Below, one piece after another: positions 2,922-61,230 of a DNA stretch of 64,000 bases. The notes below the pieces were generated by a model. It saw nothing but the letters and a program-made list of their open reading frames with translations. It did not search any database and was not told the origin of the DNA. Origin of the DNA: Planctomycetota bacterium (GTDB lineage: Bacteria; Planctomycetota; Planctomycetia; JALXBF01); assembly GCA_026991575.1 (NCBI GenBank), contig JALXBF010000027.1:1-64000 (forward strand), given 5' to 3'. Numbering within the stretch: the stretch's first letter is position 1; every line of letters starts with the position of its first letter. The position numbers and the translations under genes were made by a program.

Positions 2922-5900
2922 CTACGGGTGCCCGTGGGTGATGAACGCAGCCCAGTACAGTGGCGGGGCAATACGGCGGCGAGCGTCCTGCTCGGCGCGC
3001 AGGGCAGCGATCAGCTCCAGCTGTGCCTGGCGCAGCGCTGCGGCAGGCCGCTTGCCTTCGAGCCACAACTGCACGAACCGGCCCATCAGCCGTTGCGTTT
3101 CCCGGTCCGGCACCTTCCACAACGACGCAACCACCGTCCGGGCACCCGCCAAGCGAAACGCCCGTCGCAAACCGATCACACCTTCGCCGATCTGCACTTC
3201 CCCCACACCAGTCTCGCACGCGGACAACACCACCAATTCGGTCCCCGTCAGGTCCAGTCCCGCGACGTCCATTGCGGTCAGCAGCCCGTCGGTAAAGCCC
3301 GCCGCCAGCCGCTCCTGCCAGCGGTTCGCCCCCGCCAACGCCAGACCGCTGCGCAGTTCAGGGGCTCCGAGGCCGTTGGGCTGGTTCGCCTTCGGCGGAT
3401 CAGCACCAGGCTGCGGCACCAGCTCAATGCCGCGTTGACCGGGCCCGGCGAGCGCGACCGGCGGAAGCAGGTCGGGCAGGAAAAACCCGTGGGTGACGAA
3501 GTACAGGAACCGGGGCCGACGGATAGCAGCGACCGCCTCTTCTGTGGCCGCCGGTCCGCTGAGCAGCCGCGCAGGAATGCCTTTAGCACGGAGGTTGTCC
3601 AGGACCGTTTCGGCCTCTCGGGCGAACCCCGGCAGGCGGCGGAAGCGGAGCCCGTCGAATGCTCGGAACCCACTGGGCGTCGTCTGGGCCAGGAGTCTCA
3701 ACGGCGGCTCCTCGCGCGTCCCATCGCTACTGTTGTAGTCCGGATCAGCAACCACGACCGCCACAGGGTTCCGCCCTGCTAACTCCGGCTCCGGCATCAG
3801 CTCGCGTCCGTGTGCGACGTAGCTGACCTGGTATCGTTCGATAAGGTAGGACTGGCCGTCTGGACGCAGTGCCTCCAGTGGCAGAAGAGCCAGCGTTCCA
3901 TCGGGCGACACGTGCAACGTGCGGATGTCTGGTCCGAGGGCTTCGTACAGCGGCCGCCAGAGCCGTTCGACCAGGGTTTTTTCCGCCTGGCTGTCCAGGC
4001 CACCTGCCTGGACGGCCCGCCGCCACCGAACGATCGCCTGGTCAATCGGTGCGGCTTCGCCCAGTTGGACGTAGCGCACGTATGGCCGACCACCTTGCCT
4101 CCGGAGGATGATCGCTGCGTAGCGAGGTGACACCCAGTCGGCAAGTTTTCTTTCGCGGTCGTAGCGGAACGGCTGGTAGTGGACAAACTCAATCAGCGCG
4201 GCGTCATCGCCAAGCTGGTTGGCGAGTTCCGCGGCTCCTGCACGCTCGGCGCGTTGCAAGGTGGCGTAGGTGGGCAGACGCGCTGTCAGTTCGGCTTCAG
4301 CCCGTTCCAGTCGTTCCTCGTGCCGTTTGCGCCGGGCTTGAAACTCCTCTGGGCTCTCGCCAGGTTTGGGCCCGCGCATGAGGACGGCTGCCAGTGTGGC
4401 CCGCTCTGCGAGAACGCGGCGATGCAGTTGCCTGATTTCGGGGTCGCTTGCCCGCACGAGCGCTTCACGCTGTGCCCGTAGCGCTCGAGCGGACGGTGCT
4501 TTCCAGTCCAGTACCAGCTCCAAAATCTCCTCGTACGACTCGACGGCGTCGGCCAGGGTGAGCGCTTCGTAGAGGTGATGGCGCCACCGTCCGGCCAGAC
4601 CGCTGTGGCGGGCCTGGGTCGAGGCAGCCACCTCTCGGGCAACCGCGCTCGCGTACGCGCGAGCCGCCTTCACGAACGCGTCCCGAGCCTCGGGTAGACG
4701 GTTTCGGGCAGCGAGAAAATATCCCAGCGCCCGTAGCGTGCCGGCGAAGCTCGGATGGTGTTCCCCCAAAGCTGCTGCTTCGATTTGGAGTGCCTCGCGG
4801 TACAGCCGCTCAGCCCGGCCGTAGTCCTCCAGAGCGAAATACACACGCGCTAGGTTGCCGAGTGTGCTCGCGTAAGTCGGATGGTGTCTGCCTAGCCTTT
4901 CCCGTTCGATCTCAGCTACTTTCTCTAGCAGGTCCCGGGCCTTGCTGTACTCCCCGCGCCGAGAATACACAACGGCAAGATTGCCCAGCGTAGTCGCGAA
5001 GCGAGCGTCTCGCTCGCCGTACACCGTCCGTTCGATTGCCAGCGTTCTCCTGAGAAGTTCCTCGGCGCGGTCGAGGTCACCGACCGCGAACGCTAGCACA
5101 GCCAGGGCATTGAGCGTCGCTGCGTAGTCGGGGTGCTTCTCTCCAAGAACTCGACGACGGATCTCCAACGCACTCGTTAGGTGCTCCTCGGCGCGCACGG
5201 CTTCCCCCATCTGTACGTAGAGCATCGCCAAGTAATAGAGTGTGGTGGCATAGAGCGGGTGGTTCTTACCTAGACGCTCCTCCTGCCATTGCAAAGCTTC
5301 CTTCAGTAGCGCTTCCGAGCGGGCATACTCCCCTCTTTCCCGATACAGGTCCGCCACGTTAACAAGGATCGCTGCGTACCAGGGATGGCGGTTCCCGACA
5401 GCATCTCGCGCCAGTTGAAGCGCCTCCAGCAGAAACGGTTGTGCTCGATCGGGATACCTCATGCCCAGGTACATCGTCCCGACATTATTCAAGATTTCCA
5501 GATAGACCGGGTGATGCTTCTCCAGAACCTGCCTGGCAAGGTTCAGGGCTTGAAGCAGGATCGGTTCGGCCCGGCCGTAGTCGCCCAGATTCATGTACAA
5601 CCCTGCAAGGTTCTGCAGGCCGCGAACATAACCAACCGAGCGCTTGCCAATGGTAGCCTCCTTGATCGCTAGCGATTCTCGCACTAGCGGAACGGCCTTC
5701 ACATACAGGCCCGCCGCAGCGTAGGCCCGTGCCAGGTTGTGCAGCGCTGTGGCATAGGTCGGATGGCGCTCACCGAACGATTGCTTGGCAATCTGCGTGG
5801 CCTGTTCCAACAGTTGCAACGCCCGCCGCTGGTCGCCGGTGATGAGGTAGCGGGCAGCCAGGTTGTTCAGCGCGCGGCCGTAGTGGCGGTGCCCCTTTCC

Positions 5901-6494
5901 CAGCAGCTCACCCCGAATAGCCAGCACCTTTTGCAGCCGCTCGATGGCTTCGCGCTGACGGCCAATCCGGGCAAGCTGGCTCGCCTCGACCTCCAATGCG
6001 TCGGCCACCTTCAGACGCTGGCGCTCCTCCGCGGACATGCGGGACAGGCGCTCGGCATCTTCCAAAGCCAGTCTCGCATCTGTCACGCGCCAGTGTTTCG
6101 GATGATCTGGCGATGGATACAGTTTTCGGTAGATCTCCAACACTTCACGGCGGCGTTGCCGGGCGGCCTCCCACTGGTCGGCCTGCTCGTGCAGTCCGGC
6201 CAGCAGTTGCAGCGTCCCGGCCACCTCTTCGTGTACCGCGCCATAAACCTCCCGCTCGATGGCCAGAATCTGTTCGGCTGCCGTCACGGCCTCGTCGAGT
6301 TGCCCCTCGGCCCGCAACTGACGGACGCGCTGCACCAGCCGGTCGCGTTCTTGGAGCTTGGCTTCCAACTCCTCCGGAGTACGCTGGTCCGCTGCTGGTG
6401 GCGGCGGCGGACTTTCGGTCGACTGAGCGCCCACGCTGCCGGCCAGGATAATCAACGCAACACCGATAGCCGATAACAAACGTTTTCGAGCCAT
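2922..6494 (-). CDS. Secreted TPR-CHAT protein (caspase-like protease), paralogue 1
   Basis: A 1190-residue protein with a clear signal peptide (residues 1-23, KRLLSAIGVALIILAGSVGA). From about 100 to 620 there are some twelve kinesin-light-chain-type TPR units (LxNLAxxYxxxGxYxxAExL...LGxxHPxYA). The C-terminal CHAT domain holds the caspase-type dyad: His1002 in 'YFVTHGFF' and Cys1093 in 'LSACETG', followed by the family's 'GARTVVASLWKV' segment. CHAT domains are cysteine peptidases of the caspase-separase clan; the TPR part would bind partners or substrates. Export implies action outside the cytoplasm. The gene follows a Ser/Thr kinase gene on the same strand after about 105 bases, so the two probably form one transcription unit. 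A full-length paralogue lies at 37518-41069. The catalytic residues are visible; the substrate is unknown. Confidence 0.93.
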   Translation of the reverse strand: MARKRLLSAIGVALIILAGSVGAQSTESPPPPPAADQRTPEELEAKLQERDRLVQRVRQLRAEGQLDEAVTAAEQILAIEREVYGAVHEEVAGTLQLLAGLHEQADQWEAARQRRREVLEIYRKLYPSPDHPKHWRVTDARLALEDAERLSRMSAEERQRLKVADALEVEASQLARIGRQREAIERLQKVLAIRGELLGKGHRHYGRALNNLAARYLITGDQRRALQLLEQATQIAKQSFGERHPTYATALHNLARAYAAAGLYVKAVPLVRESLAIKEATIGKRSVGYVRGLQNLAGLYMNLGDYGRAEPILLQALNLARQVLEKHHPVYLEILNNVGTMYLGMRYPDRAQPFLLEALQLARDAVGNRHPWYAAILVNVADLYRERGEYARSEALLKEALQWQEERLGKNHPLYATTLYYLAMLYVQMGEAVRAEEHLTSALEIRRRVLGEKHPDYAATLNALAVLAFAVGDLDRAEELLRRTLAIERTVYGERDARFATTLGNLAVVYSRRGEYSKARDLLEKVAEIERERLGRHHPTYASTLGNLARVYFALEDYGRAERLYREALQIEAAALGEHHPSFAGTLRALGYFLAARNRLPEARDAFVKAARAYASAVAREVAASTQARHSGLAGRWRHHLYEALTLADAVESYEEILELVLDWKAPSARALRAQREALVRASDPEIRQLHRRVLAERATLAAVLMRGPKPGESPEEFQARRKRHEERLERAEAELTARLPTYATLQRAERAGAAELANQLGDDAALIEFVHYQPFRYDRERKLADWVSPRYAAIILRRQGGRPYVRYVQLGEAAPIDQAIVRWRRAVQAGGLDSQAEKTLVERLWRPLYEALGPDIRTLHVSPDGTLALLPLEALRPDGQSYLIERYQVSYVAHGRELMPEPELAGRNPVAVVVADPDYNSSDGTREEPPLRLLAQTTPSGFRAFDGLRFRRLPGFAREAETVLDNLRAKGIPARLLSGPAATEEAVAAIRRPRFLYFVTHGFFLPDLLPPVALAGPGQRGIELVPQPGADPPKANQPNGLGAPELRSGLALAGANRWQERLAAGFTDGLLTAMDVAGLDLTGTELVVLSACETGVGEVQIGEGVIGLRRAFRLAGARTVVASLWKVPDRETQRLMGRFVQLWLEGKRPAAALRQAQLELIAALRAEQDARRRIAPPLYWAAFITHGHP

Positions 6495-9189: not shown

Positions 9190-9818
9190 TTGGGCCAGTC
9201 CCCTCCGAACCGAACGTGCGGTTCTCCCGCATCCTGGACCTTCCGCAGTGCGAGCGGTGCGGGACATACTCCGAACCGCACGTGCGGTTCTCCCCCATCC
9301 GGCTCTCCGGTCGGCGGTCTTACCTCAATGAGGACCAACTGACCTTCTGTGTGCGGGCTGCCTCCAGGCTCAACAACCCACACCGGGCCGGGACCTCTCC
9401 GTCCCCCCCTGTCACCAGGGCCGGCGCCAGACAACCTCGAGCTTCACGGCTTCCGCCACGGCCTCGCTCCAGCTTCTCCACCTGGTCTAACCCATGGCGG
9501 ACACACATGGTGGGGCTCACTGCCGTTGCACCTTCCAGTCATCTCCGCCTTCCTGGGTCCCTTCGCTCTGCCGGCACTACCCCCCTTTCCTCGCTTGTTT
9601 CTGGTCCGTCGGGCTCCCGACGGCCCCCCTCTCCTGTCGGTTCGGTGCTTTGGTTCGCTCGAGCTCACCGAGGACCTAGCGGACCGCCGCCCGCGGCGCT
9701 GCTGCGGTGGATTCGCGCCGGCGCCGGTACCGCAGCGAAGCTGCTTCCGCTCGCCGCCTGCCCAGGAGAATCCCGCCACTCGGGCCGCGGGCGGGATCGA
9801 CCCGCCCGCGACCCGGCC
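9190..9818 (-). mobile_element. Group II intron 3' fragment, copy A (no reverse transcriptase)
   Basis: On the minus strand, 9305 to 9273 reads GAGCCGGATGGGGGAGAACC then GCACGTGCGGTTC. This differs at about three positions from the widespread bacterial group II domain V form GAGCCGGATGCGGGA...GCACGTCCGGTTC. A second domain-V-like tail (GGATGCGGGAGAACCGCACG, then TTCGGTTCGG) lies at 9234-9206. About 540 bases upstream in the intron sense (9274-9815) are nearly identical to 33669-34207. No RT/maturase frame is present, so this is a truncated or ORF-less remnant. It ends in strong hairpins near 9780-9865. The domain V call is pattern recognition; a covariance-model search would decide it. Confidence 0.55.
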
Positions 9819-25107: not shown

Positions 25108-26739
25108 GTAACCGCTAACGGGGCGCAGACGGGTGGCGCGGGGCGAGGATCGAGGTGAGGTTGAGCGGCGCAGGTAATGCTTGATGAGTGTTGATAGATA
25201 TAGAGGTAGTCAGTGGCGTCAGGTGGCAGGTTCGGGAAGCAGGCGGGGAGGCTGTCTTCCTTGGCGATAGGCTAGCAGTGCTTCGGTGAGGAAGGTTCGG
25301 ATACAGCGTCCAATTTGTCCGCACGTCTCGGCGATGATCAGCAGCCGTTCCGTGCAGCGAGCACCAGATTCGGTGTCATTGCCGAAGCTGATCTTCCGCC
25401 AGATCACCGGTGGCCGCAGGGCCCGCTCGGCCGCGTTGTTGGTTGGCTCAACGCCCTCGTGGTACAGGAACACCCACAACGACGGCTCGTGCCGCAGCAA
25501 GAAGCGGCACGTCGCCGCTAGCTTCGGACACTTCAGCCTTGCCCCCTGCTGAAGCAGGTCTCTGATCCGCCACCGTGCGTGCTTCAGGATCGAGTCCCGC
25601 ATGGTGCCACGCGTGATCTCCCCACGACACATCCGGGCATGCTGCAAGCACACAAAGTCCAGGTTGTTCAGCAGAAGCGCCCCACTCATGCACTCCTCCC
25701 TCACCGTTCCAGCATCGCCTTTGCCTGCCGCTGCTCGTGCGCCAGGCACAGCTGACGACGACGGGGCCTCGTCCTGCCGTACGCCGAATACCCGTCCGTG
25801 TGCACAATCGCCCGTGTCTCCGGCCGCAAAGCTGGTTCGCCACCGCCCGCGATCGGTTCCGGCGAATCAGGCAGTACGTCACCCTGTCCGTCACCGCCAC
25901 CCAAAGCCATGTCCCCTTCTTCTGCACGCGCCAACTCGTCTTGTCGGCATGCACCACCGACGCCGACCGCACCACCTAGCCAATCTGCTCATGCGGCTCC
26001 GCCAACGCTTGTGCCGCCACCGTCACACACGCTGACACCTGCCCCGGCGACACCCTGATCCCCAAGCACTGCTCGAAAACACGGTGCATCCGTCGTAGCG
26101 GTAGGATGTAAAGCCCCAGCTGAGCAACAAGACTCATCAGACGAGGACCGAACGCAGTCGGCTTGGCCGCAGCCACTTCCCCACCGTCACGCAGTGACAC
26201 CGTGGACGCACCAGGCAGTGGACTTGGTAATCGATACGGAATCCCTGGGCTCCGTGACCTCCGTTGCCCGGTACCGCTTCGGTCTCGGATCCTCTCCCCA
26301 CGCCCCCCGAAGCACGCTCGGCATCCAGGGCTCACCGAGCGACAACTTGTTCAGGCTTCAACCATGTCCTGCTGCGCACGTACTGCCTCGACCGCATCGG
26401 CGTAGCGCTAGGCGCCTTCTCAAACCCGCTTAACTGCTGATCGCGCTGCGGGCGACCGGGGCCGGTCAACTCGGTCACGGCCCGTCAGCACCTTCTATTC
26501 ACGGTTCTCGCCAATCCGACGACGGCGCTGCGATGAGTCCCGAGAGCTGCGCCTCAACTGGACTTCCAAATCCTGAACACGCCGTTCTAGCTGACGGATC
26601 CTATCCATGTGCGCTTTCAGCACCGCCCGTACCACGGCGGCCGCGTCGCGGGACATCTCGTTCCACACCTCGTTCGGCAAGAGTTCCCCTATCATGGTTG
26701 CCTAAGCCTCTCTACGAGCCTCGCCTCGTAAACGGTCAC
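25108..26739 (-). mobile_element. IS66-family element, decayed
   Basis: The left end GTAACCGCTAACG (25108-25120) and the right end, read on the minus strand as GTGACCGTTTACG (26739-26727), form an imperfect inverted repeat starting GTAA-like, as in IS66. No 8-bp target duplication is visible. A related but truncated copy lies at 60217-61230. Confidence 0.7.
25219..26695 (-). pseudogene. IS66 TnpC-like transposase, multiply frameshifted
   Basis: Pieces in different minus-strand frames follow IS66 order. There is an N-terminal coiled coil (26695-26495, 'HMDRIRQLERRVQDLEVQL'), then 'YILPLRRMHRVFEQCLGIRVS' (to 25976), then 'VVHADKTSWRVQKKGTWLWV' (about 25960) with a catalytic Asp, and the C-terminal 'GVEPTNNAAERALRPPVIWR' (about 25420) with the Glu. 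Several frameshifts and stops separate them. The accessory genes tnpA and tnpB are absent. Confidence 0.85.
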
Positions 26740-27978: not shown

Positions 27979-27998
27979 GGGGCTGAGGATCAGCCCCC
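27979..27998 (-). terminator. Hairpin across the stop codon of the nuclease-zipper gene A
   Basis: On the minus strand GGGGGGCTGATCCTCAGCCC folds into an 8-bp stem with loop TCC; the TGA stop is inside it. Copy B has a related but imperfect stem at 54428-54446. No U-tract is evident. Confidence 0.4.
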
Positions 27999-29195
27999 CA
28001 TTAGCCGGTTCCAGGTTCGTTTGAACCAGCCTTGGCGTTTGGGGGAGCGTTGACGGGACGGCCCTGGGCTGTTCCACCAGCGCCGTACCTTCTTGGAGAA
28101 ATCAACGGCAGCTTCGCCAAGGCGGCTCCCCAGCTCAGAACCGCCGACTGCCCCGGCGATACCGCCAACCACGCCTCCAACCACAGTACCCACCGGGCCG
28201 GCAGCGCTGCCAATAGCCGCGCCGGTATAGGCTCCGACCCACGCTCCGGCCGCCCCGCCCGCGGCGCCTCCGGCCGTACGTGCTCCGAGCTTCACGTGGG
28301 CTTCGACCCGTTGGCTGTGCGAAATCGCCCCGCGCTGGTACTGTTTCTCAATCTGGTAAGCGTCTATACCGTAGGCAGCGACCTCAGTAGCCACGACCAC
28401 AATACCAAGCCCTTTACCCGCTTTACGCGCGACCTTTGTGGCACGCCGCAGCCCCTGCGTGGACCCCAGGGCGTCCTCGGTAGCGGCTACCTTTCCCAAC
28501 CGACGCGGCAACCGTCGAGCCCCTTTGCCCGTTTGTGGCGCGTGCTTCGCGCCGCCTGTCACTTCGCGACGCAGCTGTGCGTAGGGCCGTCCGTATGTTC
28601 CCCTGGGCAGCGGCAGCTTGCCCTCACGCTGGAGGGTATCGAGAATCTCTCGAGCGAGCTGCCGATCGTATCGCGAAGCTTGCTTCACCCGGACCAGCTT
28701 AGGGCGTGCGCCCGCCTTTGGCGTGTGGATTACCTCGACCCGAAGTCTGCCCCGCTCCGCATACTCCAGCACGAGCTGAGCCGCCTTCCGCTCGCGCGCG
28801 GTGGCCTTCGGGCTGCGCAGCATCCGCTTCGCACTCTGGATCGCATGGTCAATGGTTTCCTGACCAGGCCTCAGCCGCCCGGCTCCTCCCTTCGCTTCAA
28901 TGCAGACGACCTCTCGCCTCTTCGCGTCGAACCAGACCTGGTCCCAGCCATGAAGATATTGTTTTTCGGTGTGTTTGAGCAGCGGCTTGTAGCCACGCTG
29001 TTCGCAGTAGAGCTCCGCGCCCTCTTCGCCGATCAGCTCCATCACCTCTGTGGCGACCTGGTGCACCGCAGCTCCCGCCACCGTCGCCACTGTCGCGCCG
29101 TTCAGAGCCGCCTCACACGTCACAGAACCAGCAACAAGCGCCACAACGGCTGCCGCCAACCACCAGACCAGCTTGGCTAGCTTACGTCGTGCCAT
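27990..29195 (-). CDS. Secreted nuclease-like (PD-(D/E)XK-type)/glycine-zipper protein, copy A
   Basis: 401 residues from ATG 29195 (GGGAGGTG 4 bases upstream). Residues 1-29 form a signal peptide (WWLAAAVVALVAGSVTCEA). Residues 50-125 look like a restriction-endonuclease fold: Glu in 'MELIGEEGAE', Asp in 'GWDQVWFD' (85-90), 'CIEAKGG' with Glu100-x-Lys102, and Gln112 in 'RPGQE'. This E-D-ExK-Q spacing fits PD-(D/E)XK toxins. A basic linker leads to a glycine zipper (about 305-360, GGAAGGAAGAWVGAYTGAAI and on), of the kind that inserts in membranes, and a basic tail. No family name can be given. A secreted small protein gene precedes it, and the whole pair is repeated at 54438-56294. Upstream in-frame sequence back to 29342 is partly conserved in copy B, so an earlier start cannot be excluded. 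The nuclease activity is inference. Confidence 0.8.
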   Translation of the reverse strand: MARRKLAKLVWWLAAAVVALVAGSVTCEAALNGATVATVAGAAVHQVATEVMELIGEEGAELYCEQRGYKPLLKHTEKQYLHGWDQVWFDAKRREVVCIEAKGGAGRLRPGQETIDHAIQSAKRMLRSPKATARERKAAQLVLEYAERGRLRVEVIHTPKAGARPKLVRVKQASRYDRQLAREILDTLQREGKLPLPRGTYGRPYAQLRREVTGGAKHAPQTGKGARRLPRRLGKVAATEDALGSTQGLRRATKVARKAGKGLGIVVVATEVAAYGIDAYQIEKQYQRGAISHSQRVEAHVKLGARTAGGAAGGAAGAWVGAYTGAAIGSAAGPVGTVVGGVVGGIAGAVGGSELGSRLGEAAVDFSKKVRRWWNSPGPSRQRSPKRQGWFKRTWNRLMGG

Positions 29196-29373
29196 AGCAC
29201 CTCCCCGGACACAGTTACGAACGGACCGATCGACCTCGACAGACCACCGCTCGGAACCACCACCGCTGTGCACATGTCCCGCCGAACCGGACATCGGAAC
29301 CCCTCGTTCAGCCGAGTTCGCTCTCATTGCTTCGGCGTTCACCCCTTCGTTGCAGGTATCCGGCCACGCCCGT

Positions 29374-29742
29374 CTACTCCCGGCCGAAGAACCACTTTTT
29401 CCCCGCGCGGCACGCCTCGTACATGAGCCGCCAGCCTGGCGGCAGCAGGGTGTCCTTCAGTGCCTCCAGGTGTTCCCTCCGCCGCTGAGCCGGCGTGATC
29501 TCGCCACGCCAGTACCTCCACTCAATGGAAAGCACTCGCCACGCGTACGGGCTGGCGTCAGGGCCCGGCACACAGCCGCCCGGGCGATAGCACATCGGCA
29601 CCGCGGTACGCACCACCTTGGCCGCGCTCACGGAGCCATCGGATGACTGCGCTGCGACCGGATGGGCGAGCCACCCGACGTTGAGCGTCAATGCCACCAG
29701 CAGAGGTCCTACCGCGTTCGTCAGTGGCTTGGCAATCAGCAT
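29374..29742 (-). CDS. Small secreted partner protein, copy A
   Basis: 122 residues from ATG 29742 with GGAGG 10 bases upstream. A signal peptide ends near 'HPVAAQ'. The mature part is short and basic with a conserved core shared with copy B: 'YRPxGCVPGP', 'WRxLSIEWxYWRG', 'TPAQRRxEH', 'PPGWR' and a terminal 'KKWFFGR'. One conserved Cys lies in the core. No family is recognised. It lies 178 bases upstream of the nuclease-zipper gene on the same strand and is likely co-transcribed. It could be an immunity protein, chaperone or co-toxin; nothing in the sequence decides this. Confidence 0.75.
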   Translation of the reverse strand: MLIAKPLTNAVGPLLVALTLNVGWLAHPVAAQSSDGSVSAAKVVRTAVPMCYRPGGCVPGPDASPYAWRVLSIEWRYWRGEITPAQRRREHLEALKDTLLPPGWRLMYEACRAGKKWFFGRE

Positions 29743-30206
29743 ACGTTGAGATCCTCCGGCAGTCTGACGGAGACAGTATCGCTCAGTGCTGCACGACGCC
29801 CGAACCATCGCTCGGTTGCTCCCACCTGACAGTGCACGGCGGTCCCGTGTTCCACTCGCACCCTTCTATTACATCTACAGGCTCATTGCCCGATTCCTGA
29901 CAGCGGATCGCACGTCTCAAGCCGACGCCTCTCTTTCCGTACACGCACCGCACCGGCGAGTCCTGACAAAGAGCCATTCCGCTCTTGCCTCGGGTGCCCT
30001 GGAGCAGCTCGGGAGCGGCCCCACTTCCGCGGCTGTCTGTGGGCCAGATCTCTTGTCACTCCGGTGGCTTCCCGAGGCGATCGGGTCCGCACCACGATGA
30101 ACCGCAAGGGCTGGATCCATGGGCCTACGACTCAGTCCCGCCGTCGCGGAAGCGCCCCTCTGTCTGTTCTCTGTCACCGCACGTCGTCCACGCTTTGGTT
30201 GCCTTG

Positions 30207-31530: not shown

Positions 31531-33378
31531 TCAGGGAAGCGGTTTCCTTTTGGGCCCGCTCGGCCGTGGAAAGCGCGCCTCCCAGAGGTCGTAGGAGCTC
31601 GGGATGCCTGATGCGGGAATGGCCAGGGCAATGAGCGTCGCCACTTGTTCGAGCGCTGCCGTGCTAACCCGCGTGTTGGCTGCCAGGGCCACGTGGGTCT
31701 CGCTCAGGTCGACGCCAGTTCGCGATCGGTAGCCCTTCGGGAAGATGGCCACGTAAGCGGTACCGCCATCGATTAGCCCGCTATGTTCGAGTTTGCCGCG
31801 TGATTCCCGCCCCCAACCCATCGCATCCAACTCCTCCGGGGAATACTGCTTGGCAAGCCGGGTGGTGATCCAGAGCAGACTCCGAGCCGAAGCGGTCCAG
31901 CCTCCGGCAGCTAGACCAAGGCTCGATTCCTTGTGTGCAAGGCGTACGGGTCGGCCGTCCACAATGTTGTACGGGTCGGCATCGTAGCGGTCCGGTCGAG
32001 CCGACATCGGACGGACCGAGGTTGCCATTCCCAGGGGGGCAAGGTAACGCTTGGTAACGTAGTCGCGATAACTCTCGCCGGAAACCTTCTCGATAATCAG
32101 CGTCCACAGTCCGAACCCGTGATTCGAATAGGCCCATGCCGCGCCGGGTCGCCAACGCAACGGCCGGGTTCGCAGGAAGTGCCGATGTACGTGCTCGTAG
32201 GTCAGGTTGCTTTCCGGCACACCAAACATCTTGACGGCTCCCGCGACATCGCCGCTGCCGTAGAAGCCACTGCGGTGATCCAGCAGGTGCTGGACCGTCA
32301 CGCTGCGCCACCAGACCCAACGATCGTTCGCGCTGCCCCGGATGTTCAGCGGCGGTAGGCTGTAGGAGTATGGTGAACGTTGCTTGCCCAAGTTGATGCG
32401 CGTGCCGACGGCGACTTTACCATTGGCAAACCAGGTGTAGACGTCGTCATCAGACGCCATCCCGATTCCACGGATCTGGTACGGAGAGAAGCCGCGGCCG
32501 GCCGGGATACGGAACAGGCCCGGTCCCACGTAGCGAGCAAAGTTGCGGCTGGTCCCGATGCTGGTCGTGCCATCGTCATACCAGACGTGGACGCGGTCGT
32601 TGGACTTGGCAATCGCAACTCCGACGACGTTGAACATGGTCTTGCCCCGCGGCAGCGTCACTGTCTGCTCCGGGTCCGGGGCGCGGACCGCACCCAGATC
32701 CCAGGACCGCCCGACACTGACTGTGCCGTCGTTGTACCAGGTGTAGACGAGGCTGCTGGAGCCCGCGATGGCAATTGCACGAATGTCGGTGATCCGGCGA
32801 CCGGCGGGCAGCTTAAACGGTCGCCGGCCCTCGTAGCGGTCCAGATCGCGGCTGGAGCCGACACTGTACGTGCCATCGACGTACCAGGCGTAGACGCGGT
32901 CGCGTGGCGAGATGGCCAGCGCAACGATCGGGCTGAAGCGGTTGACCCCGATCCGGATGTCGTTGTCAAAGCGTGTTCCGAAGATCCCTCCTGGCCCATA
33001 CACTCGCTTTGATTTCGGGTCGATCCCCTTACTGCGCAACAACTGGTAGCCCGCAGGGCCGGTAATGGTCGCTTTTGAGACGGAACCGATGCGGGTCCGG
33101 ATCATCGGTCCCATTGGAACAAACTCCAGCCCACCAGACGTGGCGTTCGCCTTTGCATAGCCATAGCCCTTTACCAACACCAGGCGTCCGCCCTTGGTGA
33201 CAGCCACCGTCATCCCCACGATCCGGTGTTCGTGCATGATGGTGGCAACGATCGGATCGACCCGTTTCGCCAACTCGCCCCAGCCTGCCCCCTGCGATGG
33301 CGGCTCCGCGGCTTGAGTCGGCGCGAGCGACAGGAAGAGCCGGACCAGTGCAACAGTGATGAGAACGCGCCCGGTCAT
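31531..33378 (-). CDS. Secreted class C beta-lactamase-like serine hydrolase with inserted four-repeat domain
   Basis: 615 residues from ATG 33378 with GGAG upstream; the signal peptide ends near 'PTQAAE'. The beta-lactamase/transpeptidase fold carries Ser99-x-x-Lys102 ('GSVSKAT') and Tyr417-x-Asn419 ('AYSNHG'), the nucleophile and base motifs of the class C/esterase group. Between them, about residues 145-345 contain four repeats spaced about 50 residues apart, each with a segment like 'VYTWYNDGTVSVG' (aromatic, Asn/Asp-Gly, then SVG/SIG). These look like blades of a beta-propeller and are not part of normal family members (about 350-400 residues). The frame is intact throughout. It may hydrolyse peptides or esters at the cell surface; the inserted part may bind polymer or partner. 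Confidence 0.88.
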   Translation of the reverse strand: MTGRVLITVALVRLFLSLAPTQAAEPPSQGAGWGELAKRVDPIVATIMHEHRIVGMTVAVTKGGRLVLVKGYGYAKANATSGGLEFVPMGPMIRTRIGSVSKATITGPAGYQLLRSKGIDPKSKRVYGPGGIFGTRFDNDIRIGVNRFSPIVALAISPRDRVYAWYVDGTYSVGSSRDLDRYEGRRPFKLPAGRRITDIRAIAIAGSSSLVYTWYNDGTVSVGRSWDLGAVRAPDPEQTVTLPRGKTMFNVVGVAIAKSNDRVHVWYDDGTTSIGTSRNFARYVGPGLFRIPAGRGFSPYQIRGIGMASDDDVYTWFANGKVAVGTRINLGKQRSPYSYSLPPLNIRGSANDRWVWWRSVTVQHLLDHRSGFYGSGDVAGAVKMFGVPESNLTYEHVHRHFLRTRPLRWRPGAAWAYSNHGFGLWTLIIEKVSGESYRDYVTKRYLAPLGMATSVRPMSARPDRYDADPYNIVDGRPVRLAHKESSLGLAAGGWTASARSLLWITTRLAKQYSPEELDAMGWGRESRGKLEHSGLIDGGTAYVAIFPKGYRSRTGVDLSETHVALAANTRVSTAALEQVATLIALAIPASGIPSSYDLWEARFPRPSGPKRKPLP

Positions 33379-33668
33379 GATGGGTCTCCGTATGGTTGGG
33401 CCAGCGGTGGCAGTCGTGCCCGAAGATAGCAAGGTTTTACACGATTGGGCCCTCTGGCACAACACCATCCAGCGGCCAGGGTGCATTTCAGCTTCTGGGC
33501 CCGCTCTGCCGAGAGGTCATCCGCTGCATGTGCCAGCGAGGCAATGCTGGAGAAGCTGGCCACCCCAGGGGAGCATTTCGCAGAGCCGGAGGCTGATGGA
33601 CCGGCCTGCTACCCATCAACAGACATTAGGAATAGCAAGCCACGATTGTCTGGGACCTGCCGCCTCCC
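33379..33668. other. Upstream region of the hydrolase, no gene
   Basis: Just under 300 bases; no coding signal apart from the hydrolase leader. Confidence 0.4.
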
Positions 33669-34207
33669 AACCGCACGTGCGGTTCTCCCCCATCCGGCTC
33701 TCCGGTCGGCGGTCTTACCTCGATGAGGACCAACTGAGGTTGTGTGTGCGGGCTGCCTCCAGGCTCAACAACCCACACCAGGCCAGGACCTCTTCGTCCC
33801 CCCTGTCACCAGGGCCGGCGCCAGACAACCTCCAGCTTCACGGCTTCCGCCACAGACTCACTCCAGCGTCTCCACCTGGTCTAACCTATGGCGGACACTC
33901 ACGGTGGGGCTCACTGCCGTTGCACCTTCCAGTCATCTCCGCCTTCCTGGGTCCCTTCGCTCTGCCGGCACTACCCCCCTTTCATCGCTTGTTTCTGGTC
34001 CGTCGGGCTCCCGACGGCCCCGCTCTCCTGTTGGTTCGGTGCTCTGGTTCGCTCGAGCTCACCGAGGACCTAGCGGACCGCCGCCCGCGGCGCTGCTGCG
34101 GTGGATTCGCGCCGGCGCCGGTACCGCAGCGAAGCTGCTCCCGCTCGCCGCCTGCCCAGGAAAAATCCCGCCACCCGGGCCGCGGGTGGGATCGACCCGC
34201 CCGTGGC
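33669..34207 (-). mobile_element. Group II intron 3' fragment, copy B
   Basis: This is nearly identical to 9274-9815 over about 540 bases. The same domain-V-like sequence lies on the minus strand at 33700-33669. There is no reverse transcriptase frame. The sequence beyond the domain V differs from copy A, so the second domain-V-like tail is absent here. Confidence 0.55.
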
Positions 34208-37517: not shown

Positions 37518-40500
37518 TTACGGCTGCCCGTGGACAACGAAAGCGGCCCAATACAGCGGCGGAGCCGTTCGCCGTTCCGGTTTGGGATCTGCACGCAGTG
37601 CGGCGATGAGCTCCAATTGAGCCTGCCGCAAGGCGGCAGATGGAGGCCGTCCACTCAACCAGAGCTCTAAGAAACGCGTCATGAGCTTTTCTGTTTCCGC
37701 ATCGGGCACCTTCCACAGGGATGCCACGACGGTCCGTGCGCCGGCTAGCCGGAAGGCCCTGCGTAAGCCGATTACGTCTTCGCCGACTTCGATCTCTCCA
37801 ATACCAGTCTCGCAGGCAGACAGCACAACCAGTTCGGTGCCCCATAAGTCCAATGCCGCCGCGTCAAGTGCTGTCAGAATCCCGTCACTGCTACCGCGTG
37901 CCAGCCGCTCGCGCCACCGGTTGGCACCGGCCAGGGCCAAGCCACTTCTCAATTGCGGGCTGACAAGCTGCGGTGTCGCGGGATCACGTTCGTGCGTCTC
38001 GGTTGGCACGAGTTCTACGCCTCGTTGGTTGGATGAATCCCTCGTGTCTGGCGGCAGCAGTGGCAGGAAAAAGCCGTGCGTGACGAAGTAAACGAGTCTA
38101 GGCCGCCGCAATGCCATCACCGCTTCTTCCGTAGCCCGATCCCGCACGAGCATACGGACGGGTATACCCGACCGCAGGAGGATGCTGTGGACTGCCTGAG
38201 CTTCGCGGGCGAAGCCGGGCAAACGGCGGAAGCTGAGTCGTTGCAGAGCCTGGAGCGATCGCGTGCGCGCTTGCACCGTCACCGGTAGTTGTTCTGCGTG
38301 CCGTTTGCCGTTCGGTCCCAGGTCATAGTCAGGATCTGCAACAACGACAGCAACGCCGTTCTTGGGCGGCGTTCCCGCCTCCAGCGTCAGTTCTCTGCCG
38401 TACGCCACGTAAGAGATGTCATACTGCTCCAAGAGGTAGCTGTGTCCGTCGGCACGAAGAGCCCCGATTGGTAGGAGGGCGAGCGATCCGTCAGGCGAGA
38501 AGCACAATCGACGGACCTGCCTTTTCATGGCTTGGCGCAGCGGCATCCACAGCATCCGTACGAGTGTTCGCTCAGCACGACGATCCAGTTTCCCTTCTTG
38601 CACTGCGCGGCGCCAGGCCGCGATGGCGCTGTCGATCGGCTCTACGGGCCCCAACCGTATCAGCTGTACCTGCGCCTCGTTCCCACCGTGCAACACGAAC
38701 GCGACGTATTCCGCCGGTCCCCAGGCAGGTTCCCGGTGGCTAAAGTCATGTGGCCGGAACTCTACAATGTCGACAAGAGCTGCGTCGTTACCTAAACGTG
38801 CTGCCAGTTCCGCGATGCCAGCACGCTGCATCCGCCGTAGCGCGGCGTATACAGGCAACTGGGTTGACAATTCTGTCTCTAGCCGTTCCACTTCCTGTTC
38901 CAGCCTGCGCCGGCGGCTGCGAAACTGGTCGGCCGGTTCGTTCCGCGTTGGTCCTCGGAGAGTCATGGCCGCTAGGGCGGACCGCTCCGCCAAGAGTCGC
39001 CGCCACAATCCTCGCACCTTGGGATCAGCTGTGCGTGTGATTACCTCTCGACGCGCCCACAGGGCCTGTCCCACGGGTCCCTTCCAGTCCAGCACCAGGA
39101 GGTACACGTCCCGTGTCGCCGGTTCTCCGGCTTCGCTCGCCAGTGTTAGAGCCGAATAGAAGTGATGCCGCCAGCGACCGGCCAGTCTCCGTTGTCGCAC
39201 CTCGGCAGCACTGACGAGCTCCCGAGCAACGGCGGCGCCAAATACCTGGGCAGCCTTGATGAGCGCCTTCCGTGCAGCGATCGTTTTCCGCTGAACCGCC
39301 AACACATGGCCCAGGTTGTTCAGTGACGCCGCGTAGCTCGGATGCCGCTCGCCCAGTGTCCGCGCGCGTATCCGCAGTGCCAGCCGGTACAGTTCCTCCG
39401 CTTCTCGATAATCCCCTTTGGCTTCGTAGACAGCCGCCAAGTCATTCAGCGTCCCTGCGTAAGCGGGATGCTCCTCTCCGAGCCCGCTACTCAAGTTCTC
39501 CAACACCAGACGATACAGCTCTTCGGCGCGCGCGAGCTGTCCCTTCTTCAGGTACAGCCGTGCTAGATTAGACACACTTCGCAGGTAGTCCGGATGCCTC
39601 GGGCCGAGCGTGGAGCGAAGCAACTCGCTAGCGCGTCGATACGCCGCCTCTGCTTCGGCGTATTTTCCTGCCGCGTGGTATAGCCAACCCAGGTTATTGA
39701 GAGTTACACCATACTGCGGGTGCTTCTCGCCAAGAACCACTCGACGGATCTGTTCGACACGCCGGAACAGACCCTCGGCGCGGGCGTACTCCTTCATCTC
39801 TTGGTACACAATCGCCAGGTTGTTCAGCGTAACAGCGTACTGGGGATGCATTTCTCCGAGCAGGTGTCGCTGGATTTCGGCCGCCCGCTGCAGAAACACC
39901 TCGGCACGTACGTAGTCGCCCATCTGGTAGTAGAGCGAGCCGAGATTGACTAGTGTCAACGCGTAATCCGGGTGACGCTCGCCCAAGGTCCGACCTTCGG
40001 CCGCGAGGACCTCTTGCAGCAGTGGTTCTGCGCGATCGTAGTGCCCCATGATCTGATAAAGCAGTGCAAGGTTGTTCAGACTGGTCAGGTACTCTCGGGG
40101 ACGCTTGTCGCGTAGTCGGATGGCGATTTCGAGTGCCTCCCGGTATAGCTCCTCGGCGCGGGCGTACTCTCCTAGCTCAATGTACACTCCCGCTAGATTG
40201 GACACGCTACTGGCGTAGTCCGGATGACCCGGCCCCAGCGTCTCTCTGCGGATGTTGAGGGCCTGTTGGTGCAACTCGACAGCCTCCCTGTACTTGCCCA
40301 TTGCCTCGCACAAGAGTCCGAGGGCGTTAAGACTTGCGGCAAATTCCGGATGCGCCCGGCCTAGCACTTCCTCACGGATTCTCAAAGCGCGGCGCAGCAG
40401 CGGCTCGGCGCGGGCGTAGTCGCCAAGGGCGTAAAACATGGCCCCGACGTTGTGCAAACTGGATGCGTAATCACGGTCCCTCTCCGGAAGCACATCCTTG

Positions 40501-41069
40501 CAGATTCGGAGTGCTTCCTCGGCGACGCGGATCGCTTCGCGGGCTTTGCCAGCCCGCCAGAGGCGAACCACCTGGATGCTGAGTGATTTGGCGCGCTGCC
40601 ATCTCGCTCGCTGTTCGGGAGTCATCTGCGCGAGGCGTTCAACCCTTCGTACGGCCAACTCGGCGTCTCTCACACGCCATCGACGCGGGTGTCGGTCGGG
40701 ATAGATCTGACGATAGATTTGCAACGCCAACTGGCGCTTCTGGCGCGCTTGGTCCCACTGTTCGGCTTGCTCGTGTAGACGTGCCGCGAGTTCACACGCT
40801 TCAGCTACCTCCTCGTGGACGTCGCCGAACAATTCTCGCGTCAACACCACCAGCCGTTCGGCCGTTGCAATGGCTTCATCGATCCTTCCATCAGCGCGCA
40901 GGCGCAATACCTCTCGGCGCAGGCGGTCACGTTGATCGGACCGTGCATGCAGTGCTCTGTCCGATTGCGATTCCCCGTGATGTGTAGGGAGTTGGTGCTG
41001 CCGACCGTCAGCAACCTGCAGACAGGTCACAGTCCACACTGACCAGAGAACCATGCGCCATCGTTCCAT
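37518..41069 (-). CDS. Secreted TPR-CHAT protein (caspase-like protease), paralogue 2
   Basis: 1183 residues from ATG 41069 (AGGGG upstream); the open frame reaches back to 41486 but only this start gives the signal segment (MERWRMVLWSVWTVTCLQVA). About twelve KLC-type TPR repeats fill residues 130-640. The CHAT domain has His998 in 'YFVTHGFF' and Cys1086 in 'LSACETGIGE'. The architecture and length match the 2922-6494 protein closely, so they are paralogues. Here no kinase gene adjoins; the gene is alone, between a glycosidase pseudogene and an acylase fragment. It may share substrates or be the target of the same kinase. Confidence 0.92.
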   Translation of the reverse strand: MERWRMVLWSVWTVTCLQVADGRQHQLPTHHGESQSDRALHARSDQRDRLRREVLRLRADGRIDEAIATAERLVVLTRELFGDVHEEVAEACELAARLHEQAEQWDQARQKRQLALQIYRQIYPDRHPRRWRVRDAELAVRRVERLAQMTPEQRARWQRAKSLSIQVVRLWRAGKAREAIRVAEEALRICKDVLPERDRDYASSLHNVGAMFYALGDYARAEPLLRRALRIREEVLGRAHPEFAASLNALGLLCEAMGKYREAVELHQQALNIRRETLGPGHPDYASSVSNLAGVYIELGEYARAEELYREALEIAIRLRDKRPREYLTSLNNLALLYQIMGHYDRAEPLLQEVLAAEGRTLGERHPDYALTLVNLGSLYYQMGDYVRAEVFLQRAAEIQRHLLGEMHPQYAVTLNNLAIVYQEMKEYARAEGLFRRVEQIRRVVLGEKHPQYGVTLNNLGWLYHAAGKYAEAEAAYRRASELLRSTLGPRHPDYLRSVSNLARLYLKKGQLARAEELYRLVLENLSSGLGEEHPAYAGTLNDLAAVYEAKGDYREAEELYRLALRIRARTLGERHPSYAASLNNLGHVLAVQRKTIAARKALIKAAQVFGAAVARELVSAAEVRQRRLAGRWRHHFYSALTLASEAGEPATRDVYLLVLDWKGPVGQALWARREVITRTADPKVRGLWRRLLAERSALAAMTLRGPTRNEPADQFRSRRRRLEQEVERLETELSTQLPVYAALRRMQRAGIAELAARLGNDAALVDIVEFRPHDFSHREPAWGPAEYVAFVLHGGNEAQVQLIRLGPVEPIDSAIAAWRRAVQEGKLDRRAERTLVRMLWMPLRQAMKRQVRRLCFSPDGSLALLPIGALRADGHSYLLEQYDISYVAYGRELTLEAGTPPKNGVAVVVADPDYDLGPNGKRHAEQLPVTVQARTRSLQALQRLSFRRLPGFAREAQAVHSILLRSGIPVRMLVRDRATEEAVMALRRPRLVYFVTHGFFLPLLPPDTRDSSNQRGVELVPTETHERDPATPQLVSPQLRSGLALAGANRWRERLARGSSDGILTALDAAALDLWGTELVVLSACETGIGEIEVGEDVIGLRRAFRLAGARTVVASLWKVPDAETEKLMTRFLELWLSGRPPSAALRQAQLELIAALRADPKPERRTAPPLYWAAFVVHGQP

Positions 41070-41500
41070 GTTAGGCCCCTTTCGCGATAGCGTCACCCGC
41101 ACTATTGGATTCGAGGGCCACAGCTTTGACGAGGACATACGAATGCGAGTCGCGGACCAAGGATGCCCCTGTCGGGACCCCAGACCTGGACAAGTTGAGA
41201 CCAGGCTGCTGCCGATACGGGCCCGCGGACTCCGTCGCGTCCCCCGGCGAGATGATCCAAACTTCCCCGAGGGACAGCGACGGCCGCCATAGCAACAACA
41301 CACACATACGCTGCATTGACGCGTGTCTTCCGGGCAAGCCCTCAGCGCCGGCAACCGACGCTTACGTCGAACACCGGCTGGCCAAACTCGCCTTGAGGTG
41401 TGATGCGCGTCCCCGTGGCGCCTACCTGCGACACGCATCGAGTCGCCAGCACTGAGCTCTTCCGGATACGGGAACAAGTTTAGCAAGTGCGCGCGGTAGA

Positions 41501-54437: not shown

Positions 54438-55748
54438 TCAGTCCCCCGTCAACCAGCCCCAGGCTCGTTTGAGCCAGCTTCGGCGCTTGGGGGGCCGTCG
54501 AGGGGGTAGGCTCGGGCCGCTCCACCAGCGGCGTACCTTGCTGGGCAGTTCGGTCACCGCTTCGCCAAGCCGGCTGCCGATTTCGGAACCGCCGATTGCT
54601 CCGGCGACGCCGCCCACCACTCCTCCAACCACCGTACCCACCGGACCGGCCGCGCTGCCAATGGCCGCGCCGGCAGACGCTCCGGCCCACGCGCCCGCCG
54701 CTCCGCCGGCGGCGCCTCCGGCGGTACGTGCCCCGAGTCTCACGTGGGCTCGCACCCGCTCGCTAGGCGAAATCGCCCGGCGTCGGTACTGCTGCTCGAT
54801 CTGGTAGGCTTCCACTCCGTAGACGGCCACCTCAGCCGCCGCCGCGGCAACTCCCAGCGCCTTACCGGCTCCGCGGGCGACCTCCGTGACGCGTCCCGCT
54901 CGCCGTAGCCCCTTCACCGCCTCCAGCACCTCCTCGCCAGCCACAATCCCTTCCGTCGACCGCGAGCCGCCCCGAACACCTCGATTTACCGCCGCAGCCG
55001 CACCCCGGGCCACGTCACGTGCGTCCTCAGCCGCATCAGCCGCCCGGTCCAAGTACCTCTGGAACTGCCAACCTCCTCTGCCTGTCTGGGAAGCACGCTT
55101 CAGACTGCCGGTCACCTCGCGCCGCATCTGCCGGTAGGGCCGTCCATATGTGCCTCTGGGCAGTGGCAGCTTGTCCTCACGCTGCAGCGTATCGAGAACC
55201 TGTTGCGCAAGTCGCCGCTGGTGCCGCGTAGCCCCCACCTGCCGTAGGACCTTGCGAGCACCACCTGCTCGGGACGTATGGACCACCTCGACCCGAAGTC
55301 TGCCTTGCTCGGCGTACTCTAGCACGAGTTGGGCGGCTTTCCGCTCACGTGCAGTGGCCCTCGGGCTATACAGGATACGCCTCGCGCTGTCGATCGCGTG
55401 CTCGATGGTCTCCTGACCGGGCCTCAGCCGGCCGGCTCCCCCCTTCGCTTCGATGCATACGATCTCTCGCGCTTGCTCGTCGAACCAGACCTGGTCCCAG
55501 CCGTGACGGTACTGCTTTTCAGTGTGCTTCAGCAGTGGCTTGTAGCCTTGCTCGCGGCAGTAGATCTCTGCTCCCTCTTCACCGACCAGTTCCATCTCCT
55601 GAGTCGCGACCTGGTGCACGGCAGCTCCCGCCGCTGTCGCCACCGTCGCGCCGTTCAGAGCAGCCTCACACGTCATGGAACCAGGAACGAGCGCCACAAC
55701 GCCTGCCGCCAACCAGCAGACCAGCTTGAATAGCTTGATTGAGGTCAT
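54438..55748 (-). CDS. Secreted nuclease-like (PD-(D/E)XK-type)/glycine-zipper protein, copy B
   Basis: 436 residues from ATG 55748 (GGAGGTGCG just upstream). It has the same layout as copy A: signal peptide 1-29, Glu57/Glu58, Asp85-90 in 'GWDQVWFD', Glu100-x-Lys102 in 'CIEAKGG' and Gln112. Then comes a longer linker with an extra Ala/Arg-rich region (about 235-270), the glycine zipper (about 340-395) and a basic tail. All putative catalytic residues are kept, while the linker and tail have diverged, which suggests selection on the first domain. It follows a small secreted partner gene (55932-56294). Activity is inferred. Confidence 0.8.
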   Translation of the reverse strand: MTSIKLFKLVCWLAAGVVALVPGSMTCEAALNGATVATAAGAAVHQVATQEMELVGEEGAEIYCREQGYKPLLKHTEKQYRHGWDQVWFDEQAREIVCIEAKGGAGRLRPGQETIEHAIDSARRILYSPRATARERKAAQLVLEYAEQGRLRVEVVHTSRAGGARKVLRQVGATRHQRRLAQQVLDTLQREDKLPLPRGTYGRPYRQMRREVTGSLKRASQTGRGGWQFQRYLDRAADAAEDARDVARGAAAAVNRGVRGGSRSTEGIVAGEEVLEAVKGLRRAGRVTEVARGAGKALGVAAAAAEVAVYGVEAYQIEQQYRRRAISPSERVRAHVRLGARTAGGAAGGAAGAWAGASAGAAIGSAAGPVGTVVGGVVGGVAGAIGGSEIGSRLGEAVTELPSKVRRWWSGPSLPPRRPPKRRSWLKRAWGWLTGD

Positions 55749-55931
55749 CGCACCTCCACGCTTACACTTACCAGCATTCCCCTCGACTCCGAAAAAAGAT
55801 CGCTCGGAGTCACCAGCGGCCTCGCCGTGCCCCGTTAGTCCGGACACCGGCGACTGACGCTTGAACGCGTTCGTTTTCATCGACGTCGGTATAACCTCCC
55901 TTTGGTGCAGTTGCCCAACCACGGCCGTCTA

Positions 55932-56294
55932 CTACCGGCCGAAGAACCACTTTTTCGCTGAACGGTACGCCTTATGCACTGCGCGCCAGCCCGGCGGCAC
56001 CAATGATTCCCGCACCGCCTTCCGGTGCTCTTGCCGCCGCTGGGCCGGTGTCATCTTGCCACGCCAGTACTTCCACTCAATGGAAAGCAGTCGCCAGACG
56101 TAACGGCTCGCGACAGGGCCCGGCACACAGCCAGCCGGACGGTAGGACGCCCGCGCGGCGGTGCCCACCACCTTGGACGTTCGCCCATGGCTAGCGGATG
56201 CCTGAGCTGCCACGGGCTGAGCGAACCATGTAACGCTGAGCGCCAGCCCCACGAGGCCAGGCAGAGCCACGTTCGTTAGCAGTCTGCTACTCAT
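55932..56294 (-). CDS. Small secreted partner protein, copy B
   Basis: 120 residues from ATG 56294, the only start that gives a signal peptide (LLTNVALPGLVGLALSVTWF, cut near 'PVAAQA'); GGAGG lies about 13 bases upstream, a little far. The mature part matches copy A at 'YRPAGCVPGP', 'WRLLSIEWKYWRG', 'TPAQRRQEH', 'PPGWR' and 'KKWFFGR'. It lies 183 bases before the nuclease-zipper gene. Confidence 0.75.
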   Translation of the reverse strand: MSSRLLTNVALPGLVGLALSVTWFAQPVAAQASASHGRTSKVVGTAARASYRPAGCVPGPVASRYVWRLLSIEWKYWRGKMTPAQRRQEHRKAVRESLVPPGWRAVHKAYRSAKKWFFGR

Positions 56295-56838
56295 GAGAGG
56301 GCTACAACCTCCACCGCTCACACGCATGCCGTTGCACACCGTGTCAACTGATCTTCGGCCCATCGCTTCCTCCACTGGCGGACCCACGACTGTTTGGCTG
56401 TACGCCTTTCTCGCGTGCTTCACGCGGCTCCACAGCGACGCGAAAGCGTTTGACACACAGCCCCAGGGTCTGCGTTCCCGAGCTTCCGCTTTGTTTACGG
56501 CCCCACCGCTGCATTCCTGACAGCGGATTGCATCTGCCAACACCACAGCCGCTGTGCTCTTTTTGCGTATACGGACGGCCGCGGCAGAATCTGACAGCGG
56601 GCCACTGAACTCTCGCGTCGGATGCCCCCCAACACACGAACGGCCCGCCAATCGTGTCCCACTGGCATCTCGTCCAGCGGACGCAGGCCACGGCCCATCG
56701 AAGCTGGTGCGATACACGAGTTCCGCTCAGTCTCCTGGCCGACCGACGTCCGGCTGGGCGCGGCGGCCGCCGATCTAGTCCCTCTGCTTGCTACGGGCCC
56801 CTGTTGCCTCCCACAGGATGATGGCACCGACCACGAGT
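56295..56838. other. Intergenic, no gene seen
   Basis: About 540 bases upstream of the copy B pair. In-frame sequence continues upstream of the partner gene but lacks coding signal. Confidence 0.45.
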
Positions 56839-60216: not shown

Positions 60217-61230
60217 GTAACCGTTCACGGGGCGCAGACTGGTGGCGCGGGGCGAGGATGGAGGTGAGTTTAAGGGGTGTCGGTAATGCTTGATGCGTGT
60301 TGGTGGTGCTAGATAGAGGACGAGTTGCATGCGTCACGCAGCAGGTTCGGGTAGAAGCCGTTGGAGGTCGTCTTCCTTGGCGGTAGGCAATCAGTGATTC
60401 TCTGAAGAAGGTCCGGATGGAGCGTCCGATCTGTCGGCACGTCTTGGCGATGCTCAGCAGCCGTTCTGTGTAGCGACCACCAGATTCGGTGTCGTTGCCG
60501 AAGCTGATCTTCCGCCAGATCACCGGTGACCGCAGTGCCCGCTCGGCCGCAGTCTTGGTCGGCTCAACGCCCTCGTGGTGCAAAAAACGCCCACAACGAC
60601 GGCTCGTGCCGCAGGAGGAAGCGGCAGGTCGCCGCGGTCTTCGGACACTTCAGCCGTGCCCCCTGCTGAAGCAGTTCTCTGATCCACCACCGTGCGTGCT
60701 TCAGGATCGAGTCCCGCATCGTGGCACGCGTGATCTCCCCACGACACATCCGAGCATGCTGCAAGAACGCAAAGTCCAGATTGTCCAGCAGAAGCGCCCC
60801 GATCCATGCACTCCTCCCTCCCCCGTTCCAGCATCGCCTTCGCCTGCCCCTGCACGTGCGCCAGGCACAGCTGACGACGATGGCGATCCAGCCAGCCGTA
60901 TGCCGAATACCCGTCCGTGTGCACGATCGCCCGTGTTTCCGGCCCCAAAGCTGGTTCGCCATCGCCTGCAATCGGCTCCGACGGATCAGGTAGTACGTCA
61001 CTCTATCCGTCGCCCCCACCCATAGCTATGTCCCGTTCTTCTCCACTCGCCAACTCCTCTCGTCGGCATGCACCGCCGACGTCGACCGCACCTCCTGGCC
61101 AATCTCCACATATGGCTCCGCCAGCGCTTCCGCTGCCTTCTGCACACTCGATGACAGCCGTCCCCGCGAGATCCTCACCCCAAACGCCCCCTGCAACAGA
61201 CACTGGATCGGCACACCCGCATGGCTCTAT
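60217..61230 (-). mobile_element. IS66-family remnant, truncated
   Basis: The left end GTAACCGTTCACGGGGCGCA matches the IS66 at 25108 and the internal sequence follows it: 'GVEPTKTAAERALRSPVIWR' (about 60560), 'TDRVTYYLIRRSRLQAMANQL' (about 60990), 'VHADERSWRVEKNG' (about 61050) and 'LLQGAFGVRISRGRL' (about 61190). Frames are broken, and the N-terminal third and right end are missing. The truncation lies just before the start of the next gene, which may have gained its upstream region from it. Confidence 0.8.

Follow-up and report, generated by a model that had tools for sequence, protein, structure and literature searches.

A probably secreted serine hydrolase of a planctomycete carries four tandem repeats inside its catalytic domain, between the S-x-x-K and Y-x-N motifs of the active site. 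Its gene lies in a 64,000-nucleotide stretch of contig JALXBF010000027.1 (the window), and the features discussed here are listed in Table 1. Our main reading, to which we give a probability of about 0.55, is that an S12 hydrolase holds a self-contained four-bladed propeller that would act as a substrate-docking or gating module at the active-site rim. As part of this explanation, the inserted build appears, from sequence comparison, to be ancestral to a small gene family of which we found three members in two phyla.

The open reading frame (31531-33486, minus strand; P0001) has 651 codons and is unbroken. Starting at the ATG at 33378 gives a protein of 615 amino acids whose N-terminus, MTGRVLITVALVRLFLSLAPTQA, resembles a signal peptide; the hydrolase is probably exported or secreted. 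PF00144 is the only Pfam model above its cut-off in this protein. It passes the gathering score with 107.7 bits against a cut-off of 27, and its match falls into two stretches with the repeats in between. The motifs SxxK, YxN, and HxG are those described for S12 enzymes in the work on Pab87 (PMC2651629). A preliminary description of this DNA had placed S-x-x-K at residues 99-102 and Y-x-N at 417-419, and both positions hold in the 615-residue form (SVSK 99-102, YSN 417-419, HSG 532-534). In P0001 they correspond to 135-138, 453-455, and 568-570, and their order is that of S12 enzymes. Judged by motif and profile, the query is a predicted hydrolase and a member of S12/PF00144 with an unusual insertion, and the Ser/Lys, Tyr-x-Asn, and His-x-Gly centre is intact in its residues.

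We considered two other assignments of the enzyme. The NCBIfam model for class C beta-lactamases (AmpC) gave 38.9 bits against a cut-off of 415, and the protein has no KTG, its third motif being HSG. Thus, the enzyme is an S12-type hydrolase or peptidase and not AmpC. A prolyl oligopeptidase (S9) or alpha/beta-hydrolase domain was also rejected: the query matched only PF00144 above cut-off, with no S9 or DPPIV match. The query has SxxK, YxN, HxG, and PF00144 in common with Pab87 (CubicO, PDB 2qmi), Flp, and the R61 DD-carboxypeptidase, and 2qmi is its best sequence match among solved structures. However, the extra domain of Pab87 is a lipocalin domain at the C-terminus (PMC2651629), whereas the putative propeller of the query lies within the catalytic domain.

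The preliminary description had proposed that about 200 residues with four repeats lie between S-x-x-K and Y-x-N in an unbroken frame. This was borne out. There are four copies of 45-52 residues each, about 200 amino acids in total, in gapless tandem (P0001 residues 187-382), with the consensus IxGxxIASNDxVYxWYxDGxxSxGTSxDLDxYxAPYxYxLPxG. Their mean pairwise Smith-Waterman score was 75.5, compared with 21.3 +/- 1.8 and a maximum of 28.8 for shuffled sequences (n=1000), and the periodicity is visible in the DNA too, at a spacing of 147-156 nt. The same description held that normal members are short at this site. From the Lys of SxxK to LLxHxSG we counted 262 residues in the query and 40-56 in 12 relatives without the insert, these being the relatives in which both motifs were located. 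A short segment here is usual in S12 enzymes, though not strictly defining, and the query departs from it.

The G+C content and GC3 of the insert are 0.64 and 0.80, near those of its flanks (0.62-0.63 and 0.72-0.74). Thus, the insert is not foreign by composition. A phage or plasmid origin was rejected, as there were no matches, and a search of the query's own genome found no other copies of the repeat.

The window has other repeated features. A DNA repeat at 9404-9703 recurs with 96% identity at 33798-34097, just upstream of the hydrolase gene, and a second DNA repeat (25247-26003 and 60363-61122) is 86-92% identical. A pair of secreted-looking genes is also duplicated (27990-29342 and 29374-29808; 54438-55922 and 55932-56717 on the minus strand), with 76-81% DNA identity; the larger gene of the pair encodes a glycine zipper and a nuclease-like GWDQVWFD..CIEAKGG motif and has no Pfam match. 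Transposase genes seem abundant in this region. On each side of it lies one gene for a very large protein (2922-6494 and 37518-41486, both on the minus strand), which we read as TPR repeats with a CHAT-like protease domain.

Table 1. Features of the hydrolase gene and of related loci (window positions unless a locus is named)
Feature	Location	Strand	Basis or remark
Whole gene (615 aa): S12-type serine hydrolase, probably secreted, interrupted by the four-repeat domain	31531..33378	-	ORF; PF00144 Beta-lactamase E=8.6e-31, two stretches
Signal-peptide-like N-terminus MTGRVLITVALVRLFLSLAPTQA	33310..33378	-	sequence reading; aligns with hydrophobic N-termini of L066, L067
N-terminal part of S12 catalytic domain	32929..33309	-	PF00144 first stretch; 41%/36% identity to L066/L067
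S-x-x-K motif SVSK (nucleophile Ser, general base Lys)	33073..33084	-	motif search, alignment
Repeat (blade) 1	32785..32928	-	P0001 residues 187-234; repeat alignment
Repeat (blade) 2	32629..32784	-	P0001 residues 235-286; repeat alignment
Repeat (blade) 3	32476..32628	-	P0001 residues 287-337; repeat alignment
Repeat (blade) 4	32341..32475	-	P0001 residues 338-382; repeat alignment
LLDHRSG motif, normal S12 sequence restarts after insert	32266..32286	-	motif search, alignment
Y-x-N motif YSN	32122..32130	-	motif search, alignment
H-x-G motif HSG (KTG-box equivalent of S12 peptidases)	31777..31785	-	motif search, alignment; S12/CubicO motif set from PMC2651629
Astacin with inserted four-repeat domain, Sorangium cellulosum So0157-2	L002:3248-5632	+	repeat and PF01400 matches
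Other myxobacterial astacins with insert before HExxH	L028/L050, L029, L033, L038, L039, L040, L041/L045		one or two blocks
S12-like hydrolase, C-terminal repeats	L049:2656-5829	-	repeats fused, not inserted
S12-like hydrolase, C-terminal repeats	L068:3524-6121	-	repeats fused, not inserted

The same architecture was found in other genomes. In the order of genome G644, 5 of 29 genomes have the repeats, and 2 of these 5 share the architecture of the query. One of the two proteins (L066) reads SISK, four repeats, LMNHAAG, YSNYG, HSG, and the other (L067) reads SVSK, four repeats, LLSHTAG, YSNHG, HNG; in both, as in the query, the PF00144 match is split in two stretches around the insert. Identity to the query for L066 and L067, respectively, is 41 and 36% before the insert, about 40 and 37% within it, and 36 and 29% after it. 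That the insert (36-40%) and the catalytic parts (29-41%) have diverged equally suggests that the insert is old and has been maintained. In a tree the three hydrolase inserts cluster together with support of 93/92, which is consistent with a single fusion event in S12 enzymes. The samples of the query phylum and of Myxococcota, to which the L066 and L067 genomes were assigned by way of Sorangium, share no genome, and thus the architecture spans two phyla. The count of three members is a lower bound, since our initial scan across genomes relied on short exact patterns and, with the repeats, got no further than Sorangium. Among 397 sampled genomes of Actinomycetota, a sample without a positive control in that group, we found no repeats.

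L066 also carries a second, N-terminal repeat set, made of a half blade (the second half), three whole repeats, and a half blade (the first half). This arrangement reads as a circular permutation with Velcro-type closure, as would be expected of a closed four-bladed ring. Other S12-like hydrolases have the repeats at their C-terminus, in about eight copies (L049, L061) or fewer (L053, L055, L068), as does a related hydrolase, L060. A further protein (L051:1683-4523, minus strand) combines roughly eight divergent repeats with a C-terminal part that is very rich in glycine; it has no Pfam match.

The repeats are not confined to serine hydrolases. In the genome-wide scan, the repeats matched a protein of Sorangium cellulosum at 41% identity (E 4e-38). 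This protein is an astacin metalloprotease in which PF01400 is split in two; one four-repeat block stands directly before HEIGHAVGLQHE, and another lies past the SIMQY turn but before the domain ends. Sorangium and no fewer than six further astacin loci have the insert before HExxH, always with four repeats. A second block past the Met-turn was seen in Sorangium, in G512, and, divergently, in G849, and copy numbers across loci are 4, 4+4, or about 8. We also compared blade registers between the query and astacin inserts. Identity was 0.42 in register against 0.39-0.40 in shifted registers, values too similar to support inheritance of the insert from astacins as one block.

The preliminary description had called the domain propeller-like and named structure prediction as the check. 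AlphaFold predicted the isolated repeats to be all-beta, each repeat having three to four strands in a blade-like order, at a pTM of 0.70 and a mean pLDDT of 65.6; the alignment had 3 rows, and the five models varied in pLDDT from 39 to 66. The first PDB match of this model in Foldseek was 3c7x, the four-bladed hemopexin-like domain of MMP-14 (E 1.3e-7, TM 0.57/0.61), followed by other propellers at lower TM; the TM of 0.57 indicates resemblance at the level of the fold only. In the full-length model the repeats reached a pLDDT of 82-91 over most of their length and 63-82 in the last blades, and the catalytic halves were mostly <50. With this model, larger propellers ranked first in Foldseek, and no hemopexin domain was among the best 50 matches. 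From the model of the isolated repeats, the insert is tentatively predicted to be a four-bladed beta-propeller. The outcome that the repeats belong to the helical domain of normal members, which the preliminary description had set against its own proposal, did not occur, given the all-beta prediction and the long spacing between SxxK and LLxHxSG.

We found no convincing match for the repeat in Pfam, NCBIfam, PHROGs, or PDB sequences, no model of Pfam, NCBIfam, or PHROG covers it, and our literature search found no paper describing it. At E<=1, PF00045 (hemopexin) matched neither the query nor any of seven domain sequences, so membership by sequence was rejected and the likeness stays at the level of the predicted fold. 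PF00415 (RCC1) had no match in the query genome at E<=1. Although RCC1/BLIP-II propellers resemble the query in repeat length and strand motif, and BLIP-II binds beta-lactamases, they have seven blades, whereas the query has four repeats and its propeller would act in cis; membership was rejected. SH3-C_UBE2O reached E 8.9e-6 in one repeat member and was also rejected, because the same model covers only 26 residues in L050, which is too short for assigning a family. PF13540 reached E 0.057 in one of seven members.

How might such a module work? The preliminary description had suggested that it could be a lid or could bind substrate. In our main reading, the four-bladed propeller would interrupt the helical region after the SxxK helix and before LLxHxSG. 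Its N- and C-termini would lie close together, so that a surface loop could carry the ring and leave the enzyme intact, and a ring at the rim of the cleft would form an exosite or gate. A macromolecular substrate, such as a cell-wall, peptide, or polysaccharide ester, may bind to the propeller faces and so be offered to the serine, and the ring may restrict other access to the active site. We infer docking or gating from where the module lies: insertion near the active site in two unrelated folds, with persistence at 36-40% identity, argues for an active-site role.

Several other explanations of the insert have to be weighed against this one. The repeats could be an oligomerisation module, in which pairing between two chains (or between the two inserts of Sorangium) builds an eight-bladed propeller around the active sites, as the lipocalin domain of Pab87 forms a closed chamber. 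The repeats do come in multiples of four (4, 4+4, about 8), larger propellers and the designed half-propeller Ika4 are also among the Foldseek matches, and Pab87 (2qmi), the closest solved relative, assembles via its accessory domain (PMC2651629). A weak match of the repeat profile to L042, an RCC1-type protein (genome E 4.6e-4), also counts against the main reading and leaves some room for seven- or eight-bladed assembly by pairing. However, inserts of just one four-repeat block are frequent, the isolated domain matched a four-bladed hemopexin domain best, and exactly four blades close the permuted copy in L066; we consider pairing unlikely. We hold it similarly doubtful that the propeller is an anchor to the cell surface or matrix with no direct role at the active site, its insertion site being a historical accident. 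Such a role would suit the many related hydrolases whose repeats are C-terminal and distant in sequence from the catalytic centre (L049, L060, L053, L055, L061) and the second, N-terminal set of L066. It does not fit well with a module placed into the catalytic domain of two unrelated folds, in astacins directly before the active-site helix, or with an S12 insert retained there at high divergence.

An open beta-structure, either a single long sheet or a solenoid, is less probable still. It would agree with the modest model confidence and with some very weak Pfam matches to beta families that are either G-box-like or unrelated (Tcp10_C at E 0.007 in a single member), but each repeat has a four-strand pattern, the propeller matches have E values of 1e-6 to 1e-7, a permuted half-blade copy exists, and the copy number is fixed at four in five or more loci. 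The preliminary description had also raised an assembly artefact. The repeats were found in no other of the 392 sampled genomes of the query phylum (apart from one weak WD40 match) and in no other of the 249 of its class, and the query genome is a draft of 191 contigs. An artefact or a chance in-frame fusion in one genome is nevertheless close to negligible: L066 and L067 carry the same fusion at this site, the frame is unbroken, and the composition is like that of the flanks.

For the docking or gating module that we favour, the propeller of prolyl oligopeptidases and the fibronectin-like module of MMP-9 are precedents. Prolyl oligopeptidase and DPPIV (S9) are serine hydrolases in which a propeller controls access to the active site (PMC9218822). 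The hemopexin-like domain of MMPs has, like the query, four repeats of about 49 amino acids, is attached to extracellular hydrolases, and provides the best structural match (3c7x). However, it is C-terminal in MMPs, whereas the modules of the query and the bacterial astacins are inserted, and the PF00045 sequence match is absent. S9 enzymes have an alpha/beta-hydrolase fold and a seven- or eight-bladed propeller. In the gelatinases MMP-2 and MMP-9, extra fibronectin-like binding modules interrupt the catalytic domain close to the active site (PMC2886829), a location comparable to that in bacterial astacins, but the fold of such a module is unrelated to the query repeats and the gelatinase catalytic fold is unrelated to the query. 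More tentatively, at somewhat less than even odds, the repeats would represent an undescribed, mobile family of four-bladed propellers, a bacterial counterpart of hemopexin domains that was spliced independently into S12 and astacin catalytic domains by their active sites as an interchangeable exosite.

The accessory domains of secreted hydrolases are usually terminal; here, a repeat without a Pfam model lies inside two unrelated catalytic folds and has been retained. The repeat family is now flagged, and a domain model can be built for it. If the insert is a closed four-bladed ring, it would be a natural insertion-tolerant module that resembles the gelatinase modules and the prolyl oligopeptidase gate and may determine which substrates are used.
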